Source: an uncultured Coriobacteriaceae bacterium | Lineage (GTDB): Bacteria > Actinomycetota > Coriobacteriia > Coriobacteriales > Atopobiaceae | DNA length: 64,000 bases | NCBI GenBank assembly: GCA_902777325.1 | Contig: CACYTH010000021.1 | Location: forward strand, 1-64,000 | Reading direction: 5' to 3' | Part shown: in pieces, positions 37,151 to 43,543 of the stretch | Position numbering within the stretch: position 1 is the first letter of the stretch | How the letters are laid out: each line of letters opens with the position of its first letter | The notes under the pieces: model-generated | The model's input: only the letters and a program-made list of their open reading frames with translations | What the model was told of the DNA's origin: nothing | Database searches by the model: none | Made by a program: the position numbers and the translations under genes

Positions 37151-37375
37151 ACGCGTCCCGCCCCCGAATTGTGTTGATTTGAAATCCTGACAGGCCGTTG
37201 CCCAGGCCCCTTTTGGCAGGGCAAAGGGCAACGCCTCAAAACACGCTCATTCTACCTGCTCCTTTGGAGACATGTGACACGACCCGTCATGGGCGTGCGT
37301 TCTTGTGGCTACCTGTGGGCTAGCTTGCGCCAACCTCGCTTTGAGATGCTCTTCTCCCGTCGAGAGGAGGACCGT

Positions 37376-38455
37376 ATGGATAAGGACTTGTGCGTGCTCG
37401 GCCCCGTCACCTCGCTTCTGGTCTGGCGTGCGGCAAGGGGCGGGCTGATAGACCTGCCCAGTCAGGACGAGGCACAGCCCGACCTGGGGCTCTGCCATGC
37501 GCGCGTGCGCGAGGTGCGGCAGGTAGACCTTGTCCGCGCGATGGGGGAGGTACCCCTCGATGTGATCGTGGGCAGCAGGGCAAGGAGCCACAACGGGACG
37601 CTCCGCTCGATCTATCTGGCGGGCAAGATGCCGCCCGGCTCGTTCATGCATGTGGGGGAGGGGCTCTACGTCTGCACGCCGGAGCTGTGCTTTGCGCTTT
37701 TGGGGCGTGGCGGACAGGTGCTCAGGCTGGCAGAGCTTGGCCTCGAGCTGTGTGGCGCCTACTCACCTGCACCCGACCAATCGGGAAGGTTCTGCAGTTG
37801 CCCTGCCCTGACAAAGAAGAAGCGGCTGGCCTCCTACCTCGACCTACTCGGGCATCGCCACGGGCTGGTGACGGCACGCAAGGCACTCGATCTGGTGACG
37901 GACGGCTCCGCGTCCCCACGCGAGACCAGCTTGTATCTCATGTTTGTGACCCCCGTCCGCATGGGCGGCTACGGCTTCCAGAGGCCGGAGCTCAATGCAA
38001 GGGTGGGCATACGCCACCAGGCGACGGGATCGCCCTTGGTGAGGACCTGCATGGTCGACCAGCTGTTTCGGGATGACAAGGGCAAGAAGATCCTCGTTGT
38101 CGACGGCATAAAGAGACGTCCTCCTGCGGGTGCGCGACAGGCGGAAGGCGCAGGTCGGACAGATGGGGCCACTACGCGCGAGCAGCATTGGGAGGCCTTG
38201 GCCAGAGACGGGCTGGACGTGGTGGTCATGGGTAGGAGTGACACCATGTCCATGGGTGGGCTTGAGGCCAAGGCCCTGAGAATCGGGCGCCTCTTGGGCA
38301 GGCCCATGCATGTGGCCAGGGGGCTGGCGCGCCAGAGAAGGCTCGAGCTGTTTGGGCTGCTCTTTGACGACTCCCGCTGGCAGGCCGAGCATGCGGCGCT
38401 CTGCCAGCTGGCTGGCTACAGCCGTCCGGCTGCGCGCGAGAGGCGCGTCGCATGA
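37376..38455 (+). CDS. Hypothetical protein, coriobacterial family type
   Basis: 359 residues from ATG 37376, which has GAGGAGG six bases upstream. Not assigned to a function. The pattern is PPGSFMHVGEGLYVCTPELCFALL, then LAELGLELCGAYSP, a basic KKKRLASYLDL block, and GSASPRETSLYLMFVTPVRMGGYGFQRPELN. It resembles a family of coriobacterial hypotheticals, recalled from general knowledge, whose N-terminal half looks AbiEi/DNA-binding-like and whose C-terminal half looks nuclease-like (VSR/DUF559 fold). Here the C-terminal half (KKILVVDGIKRRPP) is poorly conserved, and a nuclease role is doubtful. An imperfect hairpin (37196-37203 with 37226-37233) precedes it. It runs into comF after 27 bases. 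Confidence 0.6.
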   Translation: MDKDLCVLGPVTSLLVWRAARGGLIDLPSQDEAQPDLGLCHARVREVRQVDLVRAMGEVPLDVIVGSRARSHNGTLRSIYLAGKMPPGSFMHVGEGLYVCTPELCFALLGRGGQVLRLAELGLELCGAYSPAPDQSGRFCSCPALTKKKRLASYLDLLGHRHGLVTARKALDLVTDGSASPRETSLYLMFVTPVRMGGYGFQRPELNARVGIRHQATGSPLVRTCMVDQLFRDDKGKKILVVDGIKRRPPAGARQAEGAGRTDGATTREQHWEALARDGLDVVVMGRSDTMSMGGLEAKALRIGRLLGRPMHVARGLARQRRLELFGLLFDDSRWQAEHAALCQLAGYSRPAARERRVA

Positions 38456-38482: not shown

Positions 38483-39202
38483 ATGGCGCTCGCTGAGCTG
38501 TGGGTAGGCGTGCAGGAGCTGCTGTGGCCCACGCGGTGCGTGGTCTGCGAGCTTCCGGGTGAGCTCTTGTGCGAGCGATGCCGCGGCGAGCTGCCGTGGA
38601 TAGACCAGAGCCTTGCCTGCCCGGTCTGTGGGGCGCCTTTTGGCGCGCTCACCTGCACCGAGTGCAAGTCTGACTGGCCCACGCGCTCCTGCGTCTGCGC
38701 CTTGCCCTTTGCTGGTGCGGGGGCTCAGATGGCGACGGCCCTCAAGGACGGTCACGAGCTCAGGCTGGCTCCTATACTGGCGGCCGCGATCGCCACGGCC
38801 CTCGATGAGGCGTCCGCATGGCCGGCGAGAGATGGCATCCCGCGCTTCGACATTGCCGCGACGGATGCGCTCTGCTATGTGCCTGCCACCCGCGAGGCCT
38901 ATCTGCGCAGGGGGTTCGACCACATGGAGCTGGTGACGCGCGAGCTGTCATGGCTGCTTGCGCTGCCGGTGGCTGACGTGCTCGTGCGCGAGGAGGGCGC
39001 CGACCAGCGCACCCTCAGCCGTCTCGAGCGTGCACGCAATCTCGAGGGGACCGTCGGGCTCATCGGCAGCGTCGAGGGGCTGAACCTCCTTTTGGTGGAT
39101 GACGTGATAACCACGGGCGCCTCGGTATGTGCTTGTGCGAAGGCGCTCCTCGGGGGCGGTGCGCAGTCCGTCTCCGCATGTGCGCTTGCCCGTGTTTGGT
39201 GA
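38483..39202 (+). CDS. comF: ComF-family phosphoribosyltransferase-like protein
   Basis: 239 residues. The N-terminal zinc fingers CVVCELPGELLCERC and CPVCGAPFGALTCTEC precede a type I phosphoribosyltransferase domain ending in the PRPP loop LLVDDVITTGASVCACAKAL. ComFC in naturally competent bacteria is needed for DNA uptake; its enzymatic substrate is unknown. The position just upstream of a large structured RNA and near hpf matches the known comFC-raiA RNA-hpf neighbourhood of Gram-positives. Confidence 0.9.
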   Translation: MALAELWVGVQELLWPTRCVVCELPGELLCERCRGELPWIDQSLACPVCGAPFGALTCTECKSDWPTRSCVCALPFAGAGAQMATALKDGHELRLAPILAAAIATALDEASAWPARDGIPRFDIAATDALCYVPATREAYLRRGFDHMELVTRELSWLLALPVADVLVREEGADQRTLSRLERARNLEGTVGLIGSVEGLNLLLVDDVITTGASVCACAKALLGGGAQSVSACALARVW

Positions 39203-39206
39203 TACC

Positions 39207-39238
39207 TTGCACGCATTGTGTCCCGTAGCTGGTATACT
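39207..39238 (+). promoter_or_regulatory. Promoter of the structured RNA after comF
   Basis: An extended -10 (TGGTATACT, with TATACT at 39233-39238) is preceded by TTGCAC at 39207-39212. The spacer of 20 bases is long, so the extended -10 probably carries the activity. Initiation about seven bases downstream coincides with the start of the P1 stem at 39245. Confidence 0.55.
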
Positions 39239-39244
39239 TCCAAT

Positions 39245-39507
39245 CGTCTCACTCCAGGTCTGTGGTTGCGAGGGCCACAATTGGCCCTCTAGTCCATGGC
39301 AGACGAGGCCAAAGGGATCCACGTAAGCCTCCGCGTGCGCGCGGCGGCGATCATGGCTCGTCCTAGAGGTAAGTCGCACCGTCCGTTATACCTAAGAGGC
39401 ATCCGGCCTCGCGGGCGAGAGGGTCAGTAGTGATGGGGCCACGGTCCCTGAGCAAACGCCCCAGTGCGCGAGTGTGGGGGCAAAGACCAGGTCAGCTGGG
39501 TGAGACG
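39245..39507 (+). ncRNA. Large structured RNA, candidate raiA RNA
   Basis: A 357-base gap without a gene separates comF from the lipoprotein gene. Its ends pair: 39245-39252 with 39500-39507 (cgtctcac/gtgagacg), continuing after one bulged T as 39254-39257 with 39496-39499. Internal stems include gagggcca/tggccctc (39270-39289), gaggc/gcctc near 39396-39410, ggta/tacc around 39367-39392 and gccccag/..tgggg near 39458-39480. A promoter sits exactly upstream. RNase P, tmRNA and SRP hallmarks are absent. The size and location between comF and hpf fit the raiA RNA motif of Firmicutes and Actinobacteria, whose function is unknown; 6S RNA remains an alternative. Confidence 0.6.
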
Positions 39508-39559
39508 GGACTTTGAGAACAACGTGGCGTCGAGCCATGCGCGCGAGAGGGGTTTGGAC

Positions 39560-40657
39560 ATGCGGCATACGGGTAGTAAGTGGGCAAAGGCCACGGCGGT
39601 GGCCCTCGCCATGTCGGTGGCGCTCTCAGGTTGCACCATACCGTTCATTAACGTGGAGGTGCCCTTCGACCTGCCGGAGCTGCCCTTCGAGCTTCCGAGC
39701 CTTCCCAGCGTGGACCTCTCCAACCTCAACATCAATCCCATCAAGCTGCCCGTCGGTGTCACCACGTCGGTCGACGAGGCACGCCAGGAGGTGCTTGCGG
39801 GCAAGTCCGCGACGCTCTCCGATGACGCACTCGTCGCTCCTGGTTACCTTTCGGTGGGCGTCAAGCTCGCCTCGTCCTCCGCGCCCATGTGCGTGGCGGG
39901 CGATGGTGGCAGCCTGTTTGGCCTGGACGTCGACCTTGGTGCGGCCCTGGCGAGCGAGATGGGGCTCAAGGTGCGCTACATCCCCGTCGTCGATGACTCC
40001 TCGCTTGGCAAGGACTGCGACGTGGTCATGAACTCCCATAGTGACAACCCCGATGCCGTCGCCGTCGCGGGTACCTACGTGGAGTCCGCGTCTTCCTTCT
40101 TCACCAAGGGCGAACCGACGGTCGTTGCCGCCACCGATCTCGGCGGCAAGAGCGTCGGCCTCCAGAGCGGCTCGGCTTCCGAGGCCGTCCTCAATGACAC
40201 GGGCCTCAAGATGAGCCAGAAGTCCTTTGCCACGCTCAACGAGGCCTTCGAGGCCCTGGCAGCGGGCGAGGTCGACTACGTGCTGTGCGAGGCATACCCG
40301 GGCGCCTACCTTGCGGCGCTGCACACGGGCATCTCCTTTGCCGGCTCGCTCGAGACCCCTGTCACCTCGGGCATCGCCATGCTCCCGTCCAATGCCGAGC
40401 TTGTCGCCGCCGTCCAGACGGCCTTCGACGGCATCTCCTCCAATGGCATCTACAACGTGGTCCGCACCCGCTGGGTGGGAAACATGCCGGTGCTCACCTC
40501 CGACTCGGTGATCCAGAACGTTCCCGAGGGCACCAAGTCCAACGACAAGTCTGATGACGCCTCTGACCAGTCCGATTCCAACGAGACGGATGCGACTGAC
40601 TCCGAGGGGGAGGGCGACGGCTCCGACGCGGGCTCCAACGCCATCACGAGTCTCTAG
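39560..40657 (+). CDS. Lipoprotein with family 3 solute-binding domain
   Basis: Amino-acid-type extracellular binding protein, 365 residues from ATG 39560. The signal peptide ends in a lipobox (VALSGC). An unusual Leu-Pro repetitive stretch follows (PFDLPELPFELPSLPSVDL), then a bilobed SBP_bac_3-like domain with GYLSVGVKLASSSAPM, GLDVDLGAALASEMGLKVRYI and GGKSVGLQSGSASEAVL. The C-terminus is a Ser/Asp/Glu-rich tail of about 40 residues. No permease or ATPase gene is nearby, so it is an orphan receptor, or a ligand sensor for another transporter. It lies directly behind the structured RNA and may be transcribed with it, since no terminator is visible between them. Confidence 0.82.
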   Translation: MRHTGSKWAKATAVALAMSVALSGCTIPFINVEVPFDLPELPFELPSLPSVDLSNLNINPIKLPVGVTTSVDEARQEVLAGKSATLSDDALVAPGYLSVGVKLASSSAPMCVAGDGGSLFGLDVDLGAALASEMGLKVRYIPVVDDSSLGKDCDVVMNSHSDNPDAVAVAGTYVESASSFFTKGEPTVVAATDLGGKSVGLQSGSASEAVLNDTGLKMSQKSFATLNEAFEALAAGEVDYVLCEAYPGAYLAALHTGISFAGSLETPVTSGIAMLPSNAELVAAVQTAFDGISSNGIYNVVRTRWVGNMPVLTSDSVIQNVPEGTKSNDKSDDASDQSDSNETDATDSEGEGDGSDAGSNAITSL

Positions 40658-40684: not shown

Positions 40685-40716
40685 GGCGGGCGTACCTGCG
40701 GGTGCGCCCGCCTTTG
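40685..40716 (+). terminator. Intrinsic terminator after the binding lipoprotein gene
   Basis: An 8-bp perfect stem ggcgggcg/cgcccgcc (40685-40692 with 40705-40712) with a 12-base loop is followed by TTTGTC. The rest of the gap to hpf (40717-40890) shows no further gene. Confidence 0.75.
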
Positions 40717-40890: not shown

Positions 40891-41490
40891 ATGGTCGACA
40901 TCAAGATCTCGGGACGCAAGATCAGCGTCAGCGACGGGATGCGCGAGCGAGTGACCGACAAGATCGGTGGGGCGCTCAAGGTCTTCGAGATCTCTCCTAT
41001 GACCTGCGACGTGGTGCTGAGGGTGGACAAGAATCCCTCCAATCCCGAGCGCAAGACCTGCGAGGTCACCGTATTCGTGCGCGACAGCGTGGTGCGCGTC
41101 ACCGCCACCGCGACCGATATGTACGCAGCCATCGACGAGGCGGCCGAGAAGGTCACGCGCCAGCTGCGCAAGTACAAGACCAAGGTCGTCGACAGGCGCA
41201 AGCGCTCTCCGCGTGGCCTCGCCCATCCCGAGCTCGAGGCCGTCACGGCCGAGAGCCTCAGCCAGCTGATCGAGCCGGCCGAGGACGAGGACGACCAGCT
41301 CGTCCGCGAGAAGATCGTCGACCTCGTGCCGATGACGGAGGAGGAGGCCCTCGTCCAGACCGACCTCCTTGGCCACGATTTCTATGTTTTCGAGAATGCG
41401 ACAACTGGTCTCGTCAACGTGATATATCACCGTCATAATGGCGGTTATGGCATTATTAAGCCCCGTATCGAGAGCGAGGACGACGAGTAA
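40891..41490 (+). CDS. hpf: Ribosome hibernation promoting factor, long form
   Basis: Binds the 30S decoding region and dimerises 70S ribosomes into inactive 100S particles in stationary phase. ATG 40891 follows AAAGGAGG and gives 199 residues. The N-terminal S30AE domain (MVDIKISGRKISVSDGMRERVTDKI... RQLRKYKTKV) and the C-terminal dimerisation domain (TDLLGHDFYVFENATTGLVNVIYHRHNGGYGIIKP) mark the long HPF typical of Gram-positives. A comF-structured RNA-(SBP)-hpf order is seen here, with the lipoprotein gene inserted. Confidence 0.95.
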   Translation: MVDIKISGRKISVSDGMRERVTDKIGGALKVFEISPMTCDVVLRVDKNPSNPERKTCEVTVFVRDSVVRVTATATDMYAAIDEAAEKVTRQLRKYKTKVVDRRKRSPRGLAHPELEAVTAESLSQLIEPAEDEDDQLVREKIVDLVPMTEEEALVQTDLLGHDFYVFENATTGLVNVIYHRHNGGYGIIKPRIESEDDE

Positions 41491-42580: not shown

Positions 42581-43543
42581 ATGGCTAGTATCACGGGCCG
42601 CAAGGTCGCGTTTGTCGGCACCGGCATCATGGGGGCTCCCATTGCGGGGCACCTGCTCGATGCCGGCTGCCAGCTGACTGTCAACACCCGTACCCGCGAG
42701 AAGGCCGAGGGTCTTCTCGCGCGGGGCGCCCGCTTGGCGGAGAGCCCCGCCGAGGCGGCGCGCGATGCCGACGTGGTCTTTACCATGCTCGGGTATCCGG
42801 AGGAGGTCGAGGAGGTCTACCTGGCCACGGGCGGCCTCGTGCGCGAGGCAAAGAGAGGCGCCTGGCTCATCGACCTCACCACCAGCTCGCCGCAGCTCGC
42901 CCGCGACATCCATGACGCCGCGGAGGTAGAGGACAAGCACGCCTTCGACTGCCCGGTCACGGGCGGCGAGCAGGGCGCCATCGACGGAACGCTCATGCTC
43001 ATCGCGGGCATCTCGGAGCGGGAGGCCGCGGACGTGCGCCCGCTGCTCGATTGCTTCTCTTCGCGCATCTGCTGGTTCGACCAGCCTGGCGCCGGGCAGA
43101 TCGCCAAGCTCTGCAACCAGGTGTCGCTGGCATCGTGCCTTGCCGGAGCCGCCGAGGCCATGGCGCTCGCAGAGCAGTCCGGGCTCTCGGTTCAGGCCAT
43201 GATCGACATGGTCTCGTCGGGCATGGGCGCGTCCCGCCAGCTGGAGAGCGTGGCGCCCAAGGCGCTGGAGGGTGACTACGCCCCGGGGTTCATGGCCGCA
43301 CATCTGCGCAAGGACATCGCCTTGGCACTCCAGACCGCGGGCGACTACGGTCTCTCCCTGCCCGCCACGGAGACCTCGCTCAACCTCGTGCACATGCTCT
43401 GCGAGGTCGGGGGCACCTTCATGGGCACGCAGGCGCTCTCGCTGCTCTACGCGGACGAGGAGACCTGCGCCGCCGCGGGGCTCGATTGGTCGCTTCTGCC
43501 CGATGACGACGAGCCCCACCACCATCACCATCATCACCACTAG
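42581..43543 (+). CDS. 3-hydroxyisobutyrate dehydrogenase-family oxidoreductase with natural His8 tail
   Basis: NAD(P)-dependent beta-hydroxyacid dehydrogenase, 320 residues. The Rossmann motif VGTGIMGAPIAGHLLDAG is at residues 12-29. The substrate-binding DCPVTGGEQGAIDGTL, the catalytic lysine Lys176 in GAGQIAKLCNQ and the C-terminal KDIALAL follow. Candidate substrates include 3-hydroxyisobutyrate and tartronate semialdehyde. The protein ends DDDEP followed by eight consecutive histidines encoded by mixed CAC/CAT codons (43517-43540), so the tail is a coding feature rather than a nucleotide slippage tract. It could bind metal ions. Confidence 0.9.
   Translation: MASITGRKVAFVGTGIMGAPIAGHLLDAGCQLTVNTRTREKAEGLLARGARLAESPAEAARDADVVFTMLGYPEEVEEVYLATGGLVREAKRGAWLIDLTTSSPQLARDIHDAAEVEDKHAFDCPVTGGEQGAIDGTLMLIAGISEREAADVRPLLDCFSSRICWFDQPGAGQIAKLCNQVSLASCLAGAAEAMALAEQSGLSVQAMIDMVSSGMGASRQLESVAPKALEGDYAPGFMAAHLRKDIALALQTAGDYGLSLPATETSLNLVHMLCEVGGTFMGTQALSLLYADEETCAAAGLDWSLLPDDDEPHHHHHHHH

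Follow-up and report, generated by a model that had tools for sequence, protein, structure and literature searches.

A raiA (ModT) RNA and its divergent solute-binding lipoprotein neighbour in an uncultured Coriobacteriaceae bacterium

The raiA RNAs are among the most abundant structured bacterial RNAs without an assigned activity. A stretch of 64,000 nucleotides from an uncultured Coriobacteriaceae bacterium (hereafter, the window) includes, between comF and hpf, a region that was proposed from its letters alone to be one of them. The locus raises two questions: whether this region is a raiA RNA, and how it relates to the lipoprotein gene that starts immediately behind it. The location named in the original prediction was borne out by profile matches to both flanking genes. 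comF lies directly upstream of the RNA and hpf next after the lipoprotein gene, SBP1, which is the classical raiA neighbourhood; degV is the next gene after hpf. The features of the locus are as follows.

38483-39202, + strand: comF, ComF-family protein, upstream of the RNA (Pfam DZR_2 and Pribosyltran; TIGR00201 below its curated cut-off)
39230-39238, + strand: extended -10 element TGGTATACT, recognised by its sequence and conserved in relatives, with a predicted start at about 39245
39245-39507, + strand: raiA (ModT) non-coding RNA, including the extended P1 stem (RF03072 match and covariation)
39508-39559, + strand: spacer between the RNA and the lipoprotein start codon, 52 nt in the window
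39560-40657, + strand: SBP1, family-3 solute-binding lipoprotein of a divergent raiA-linked clade (lipobox LSGC; SBP_bac_3)
40891-41490, + strand: hpf, ribosome hibernation-promoting factor, the raiA gene (both S30AE domains, PF02482 and PF16321; TIGR00741 above cut-off)

Identity and fold of the RNA

The whole window was searched against Rfam at curated thresholds and two matches were obtained, the raiA RNA and one tRNA. The match to RF03072 (raiA), at 39248-39504 on the + strand, covers the model from end to end (1-209 of 209) with 164.6 bits (E 1.9e-41), far over the gathering cut-off of 101.3 bits. In a permissive search the other families stood at chance level over the RNA region and none came close to its own cut-off, the next best being BTH_s1 with 18.7 bits (cut-off, 74). 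The RNA is present in a single copy in the genome, and it shares 87-97% identity with its counterparts in genus relatives, versus 59-85% for the spacer. The claim that the region is non-coding was also upheld. Nothing argued for coding, the open reading frames that overlap the RNA are mechanical, and the conserved positions agree with the RNA structure.

The architecture of the family, with helices P1-P8 and the core pseudoknots pk-1 and pk-2, has been published (PMC11751092), and its numbering maps to the Rfam consensus. The elements were located in the window as listed here.

39245-39267, + strand: P1 5′ strand (segments 39245-39252, 39254-39257, 39260-39262 and 39263-39267), paired with 39485-39507, with covarying pairs
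39270-39289, + strand: P2 hairpin, an optional helix of the family and an insert relative to the Rfam model; 97.5% of cells paired
39292-39318, + strand: P3a/P3b stem-loop, with loop 39302-39307 as one half of pk-1; P3b 100% paired
39319-39322, + strand: P4 5′ strand, partner 39474-39477
39327-39348, + strand: P5 hairpin; double changes in 8 of 8 pairs, 80.8% of cells paired
39354-39355, + strand: first half of pk-2, partner 39481-39482
39357-39362, + strand: other half of pk-1, partner of loop 39302-39307
39375-39468, + strand: P6/P7/P8 domain (P6, 39375-39379/39464-39468; P7, 39380-39385/39412-39417; base of P8, 39421-39424/39458-39461)
39485-39507, + strand: P1 3′ strand, paired with 39245-39267

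To assess this fold, 69 RNAs from the class were aligned with MAFFT without structure and the published P1-P8, pk-1 and pk-2 were mapped onto the alignment. Circularity is limited because MAFFT used no structure, even if the structure itself still comes from the family's own literature. Pairing was found in 90.7% of 4463 cells, versus 30-46% (maximum, 46.3%) in controls slid by 1-3 columns. Double changes occurred in 39 of 66 pairs, and all measures lay above those of 500 out of 500 shuffles. Compensatory changes in relatives, which had been named as a check of the RNA reading, were found.

The individual elements contribute to different degrees. The 12-bp closing stem of the original prediction corresponds to 39245-39252/39500-39507 plus 39254-39257/39496-39499, that is, 12 pairs with one bulged base, and the nested helices inside it were found as well. 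Double changes were seen in P1, P3b and P5-P8 across the 69 sequences and in three of the four basal pairs of P2; P3a showed none. In the P6/P7/P8 domain 98.8-100% of cells are paired and each helix has double changes. P4 is complementary in all 69 sequences, but it is invariant and therefore has no covariation support, which neither supports nor refutes the pairing. The pseudoknot pk-1 is paired in 69 of 69 sequences, with double changes in three of its six counted pairs (in 11, 11 and 33 sequences); the published seventh pair is A-C in the window. In pk-2, a U-A pair is replaced by C-G in six sequences. These data place the fold in agreement with the published raiA structure, both pseudoknots included.

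The region also folds better than its dinucleotide shuffles (-121.3 versus -105.8 ± 5.2 kcal/mol), although plain minimum-energy folding did not recover the family fold. Taken alone, this energy difference is modest (z = -2.97, with 2 of 200 shuffles as good), and it is the one observation that would suit a reading in which the region holds no RNA gene and is G+C-rich intergenic DNA free of constraint, its folding being due to chance. The full-length Rfam match and the covariation in 69 sequences refute that reading, to which we assign a negligible probability. By homology and covariation, the region at 39245-39507 is identified as a raiA/ModT RNA, a standard representative of a known abundant family.

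Distribution and promoter

RF03072 was present in 117 of 121 genomes of the bacterium's own taxonomic family, in 144 of 148 of its class and in 101 of 296 of its phylum. The raiA RNA is near-universal in the class, and no real loss was demonstrated among the class-level absences. One genome of the own taxonomic family (G025), in which the RNA is absent from an otherwise complete neighbourhood, was considered as a case of SBP1 kept without the RNA. This candidate was rejected as an assembly fault, because what separates comF from SBP1 there consists of a string of N fused to unrelated sequence. Another genome (G160) has neither the RNA nor SBP1. On one contig (G105:C56) two raiA loci, L111 and L112, face each other 55 kb apart with equal scores and equal distances to their neighbours, and this pair is possibly an assembly duplication.

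A conserved element is found about 9 nt 5′ of the RNA, usually ending 8-10 nt ahead of the Rfam start. In the window it is the extended -10 sequence at 39230-39238, from which transcription is predicted to start at 39245, the base of P1. The original prediction, which had placed the start exactly at the 5′ strand of the closing stem, agrees with this, and the element is kept in most relatives. The strict form TGNTANAMT precedes the RNA in 66 of 101 loci of the own taxonomic family and in 56 of 64 other class loci; for TANAMT the counts are 98 of 101 and 61 of 64. No conserved -35 box was found among the RNA promoters of the relatives. Sigma-A-type promoters have been reported for clostridial ModT (PMC11706538). 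The predicted promoter described here is consistent with that type, its conserved part being the extended -10 element.

Linkage to SBP1 and origin of the layout

The lipoprotein gene had been described as inserted between the RNA and hpf. That interpretation did not hold, since a family-3 SBP gene is the immediate downstream neighbour of the RNA in 153 of 165 class loci (90 of 101 in the own taxonomic family and 63 of 64 in the others) and the gene is best regarded as the remnant of a transporter operon. At 36 other loci of the phylum an SBP gene is never next; hpf is next in 25 of them. SBP1 of the window matches PF00497 with 38.8 bits (cut-off, 26.4).

The origin of this layout can be traced in the deep branches of the class, where the RNA heads SBP1, SBP2, a permease and an ATPase gene, and where nine genomes have hpf on the strand of the RNA, 3.6-4.3 kb further downstream. 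In a Phascolarctobacterium (Bacillota) the order, with genes assigned by Pfam, is RNA, SBP, SBP, permease, ATPase, hpf, and in a Veillonella it is RNA, SBP, permease, ATPase, with genes named by their resemblance to those of the Phascolarctobacterium. Because these lineages share the order, RNA-transporter genes-hpf, with comF in front in the class, appears to be an old arrangement. Judged by gene order, SBP1 of the window is the surviving first member of the ancestral SBP1-SBP2-permease-ATPase set. As a separate observation, the raiA RNA precedes amino-acid-type SBP genes at five loci of Veillonella, Acidaminococcus and Phascolarctobacterium (L306, L311, L326, L324 and L334), and terminator-like sequence follows the RNA at two of them (L306 and L324).

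A tree was built from 72 raiA-linked and 29 second SBPs together with 27 others drawn from class genomes. The linked proteins formed an exclusive clade that included 71 of the 72 sampled (support, 0.97). In genomes without the linkage SBP1 was absent elsewhere, the best matches scoring 70-129 bits versus 300-351. In amino-acid-binding family-3 SBPs the arginine of the T-x-[ED]-R segment binds the ligand. This segment was found in none of the 153 raiA-linked SBPs, that of the window included; it is present in 11 of 29 second SBPs, and 20 of 29 have an arginine within the segment. One second SBP, about 1051-1920 nt behind the RNA of locus L145 (G122), seems to be circularly permuted, with the C-terminal half of SBP_bac_3 preceding the N-terminal half.

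Between the RNA and the inferred start of SBP1 the spacer has a median of 36 nt (5-95%, 15-103 nt). Neither terminator-like nor -10-like sequence was found when the window spacer was scanned. Across the class, -10-like sequences occurred in 2 of 152 spacers versus 5.3 in shuffles, no excess for the promoter types scanned, others of which would escape; terminator-like sequences followed the RNA at 9 of 153 loci, again no excess in a scan that Rho-dependent or non-canonical termination would escape. A terminator-like hairpin is located at 40698-40711, downstream of SBP1 and ahead of hpf. T-runs directly after P1 are more frequent in class members that lack an SBP and in the phylum outside the class, a comparison affected by phylogenetic non-independence. 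The idea that a terminator was lost in this class as part of a family-wide loss was set aside, because such runs were not in excess (1.9 versus 2.2) at 75 further loci, most of them in Bacillota, that came from the contig scan.

Function of the RNA and its relation to SBP1

In clostridia, ModT is abundant, stable and trans-acting, its deletion affects the growth transition, sporulation and aggregation, and in C. difficile it can be replaced by orthologues from other species (PMC11706538). The statement that raiA RNAs have no known role was correct only as far as their biochemical activity goes: deletion phenotypes and cryo-EM structures have been published (PMC11706538, PMC11751092, PMC12286853). 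The RNA of the window shares with ModT of Clostridium acetobutylicum and Clostridioides difficile the whole-model match, P1, P3-P8, pk-1, pk-2, the upstream comF, an own promoter (predicted here) and the single copy. C. difficile ModT lacks P2 (PMC11706538), whereas the window RNA has this optional helix. The surroundings also differ. C. difficile ModT is accompanied by a PTS operon and has two terminated isoforms; no terminator was seen after the window RNA and the SBP start lies 52 nt on.

Considering the evidence jointly, we regard as probable that the locus is a gene for a trans-acting raiA/ModT growth-transition RNA whose primary transcript continues through SBP1. A vegetative (sigma-A type) promoter would drive abundant synthesis of an RNA about 260 nt long, which would adopt the compact fold of the raiA family and, as in clostridia, act in trans to time the passage from exponential to stationary phase. 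The primary transcript would run through SBP1 to about 40710, at the terminator-like hairpin ahead of hpf. Processing, or partial termination, at P1 would free the RNA, and the read-through transcript would serve for the translation of SBP1. Read-through is the simplest inference, since the stretch separating the RNA from the SBP1 start has no evident terminator or promoter. The trans role is carried over by analogy from clostridia, which form spores, to a class in which sporulation is not known. That nearly every genome of a class outside the clostridia carries the RNA, and with the same two pseudoknots, speaks for a basic role that is not confined to sporulation.

The main rival is that the RNA acts in this class as a cis-acting, riboswitch-like leader that controls SBP1 by translation or read-through, in place of the trans role or in addition to it. 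Rfam classes RF03072 as Cis-reg; riboswitch, and like such riboswitches it is a structured RNA closely upstream of a transport-related gene. The constant SBP1 neighbour, the short spacers without promoter- or terminator-like excess, and the confinement of the SBP1 clade to positions behind the RNA among the checked genomes would all fit. However, riboswitches carry a conserved expression platform and none was found here, the spacers being variable in length, poorly conserved and seldom terminator-like. In addition, eight loci of the own taxonomic family keep the RNA without SBP1, and the raiA family is trans-acting elsewhere, trans complementation having succeeded in two species of clostridia (PMC11706538 and references therein). 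The missing platform and the loci with RNA but no SBP1 make a cis leader improbable.

A less remote option, although still a doubtful one, is that SBP1 is a neighbour independent of the RNA, the two being held together only by an inherited gene order under slow rearrangement, with SBP1 transcribed by unrelated means. comF, hpf and degV likewise remain near the RNA in the own taxonomic family, and three lineages lost SBP1 while keeping the RNA. Against this, another taxonomic family keeps the RNA and SBP1 adjacent and co-oriented even though its comF mostly has the reverse orientation and its hpf is elsewhere, and the spacer usually leaves too little room for an independent promoter and has no promoter-like sequence.

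Going beyond the preferred explanation of a trans-acting RNA with read-through, we tentatively suggest, as a rather unlikely extension, that the RNA and the divergent SBP1 form one functional unit throughout the class. A single transcript would give both the RNA and a surface binding protein for which ordinary amino acids have ceased to be ligands, and this protein would report on, or be set by, the growth-transition pathway of the RNA. SBP1, the gene most tightly tied to the RNA in the class and a divergent leftover of a transporter operon, is in any case a concrete candidate partner.

The occurrence of the raiA motif beside periplasmic-binding-protein genes has been pointed out in a review (PMC11477304) with reference to the first description of the motif. 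The neighbour found here is of the same kind, a family-3 solute-binding lipoprotein, but it belongs to one divergent clade throughout the class, with very short spacers, and its origin is placed in an SBP-SBP-permease-ATPase set located between the RNA and hpf. In a search of the literature other than the original synteny description, no account was found of the class-wide clade, of the short spacer free of terminators or of the operon derivation. To our knowledge, the RNA family and its link with binding-protein genes were known already, and the divergent clade and the leader-like layout are apparently added here.

Two further proteins of the window deserve mention. A 393-aa protein encoded upstream of comF (37274-38455, + strand) has no Pfam match and shares 40-57% identity with proteins of some genus relatives, and a dehydrogenase-like protein (42581-43543, + strand) has a natural stretch of eight consecutive histidines at its C-terminus.
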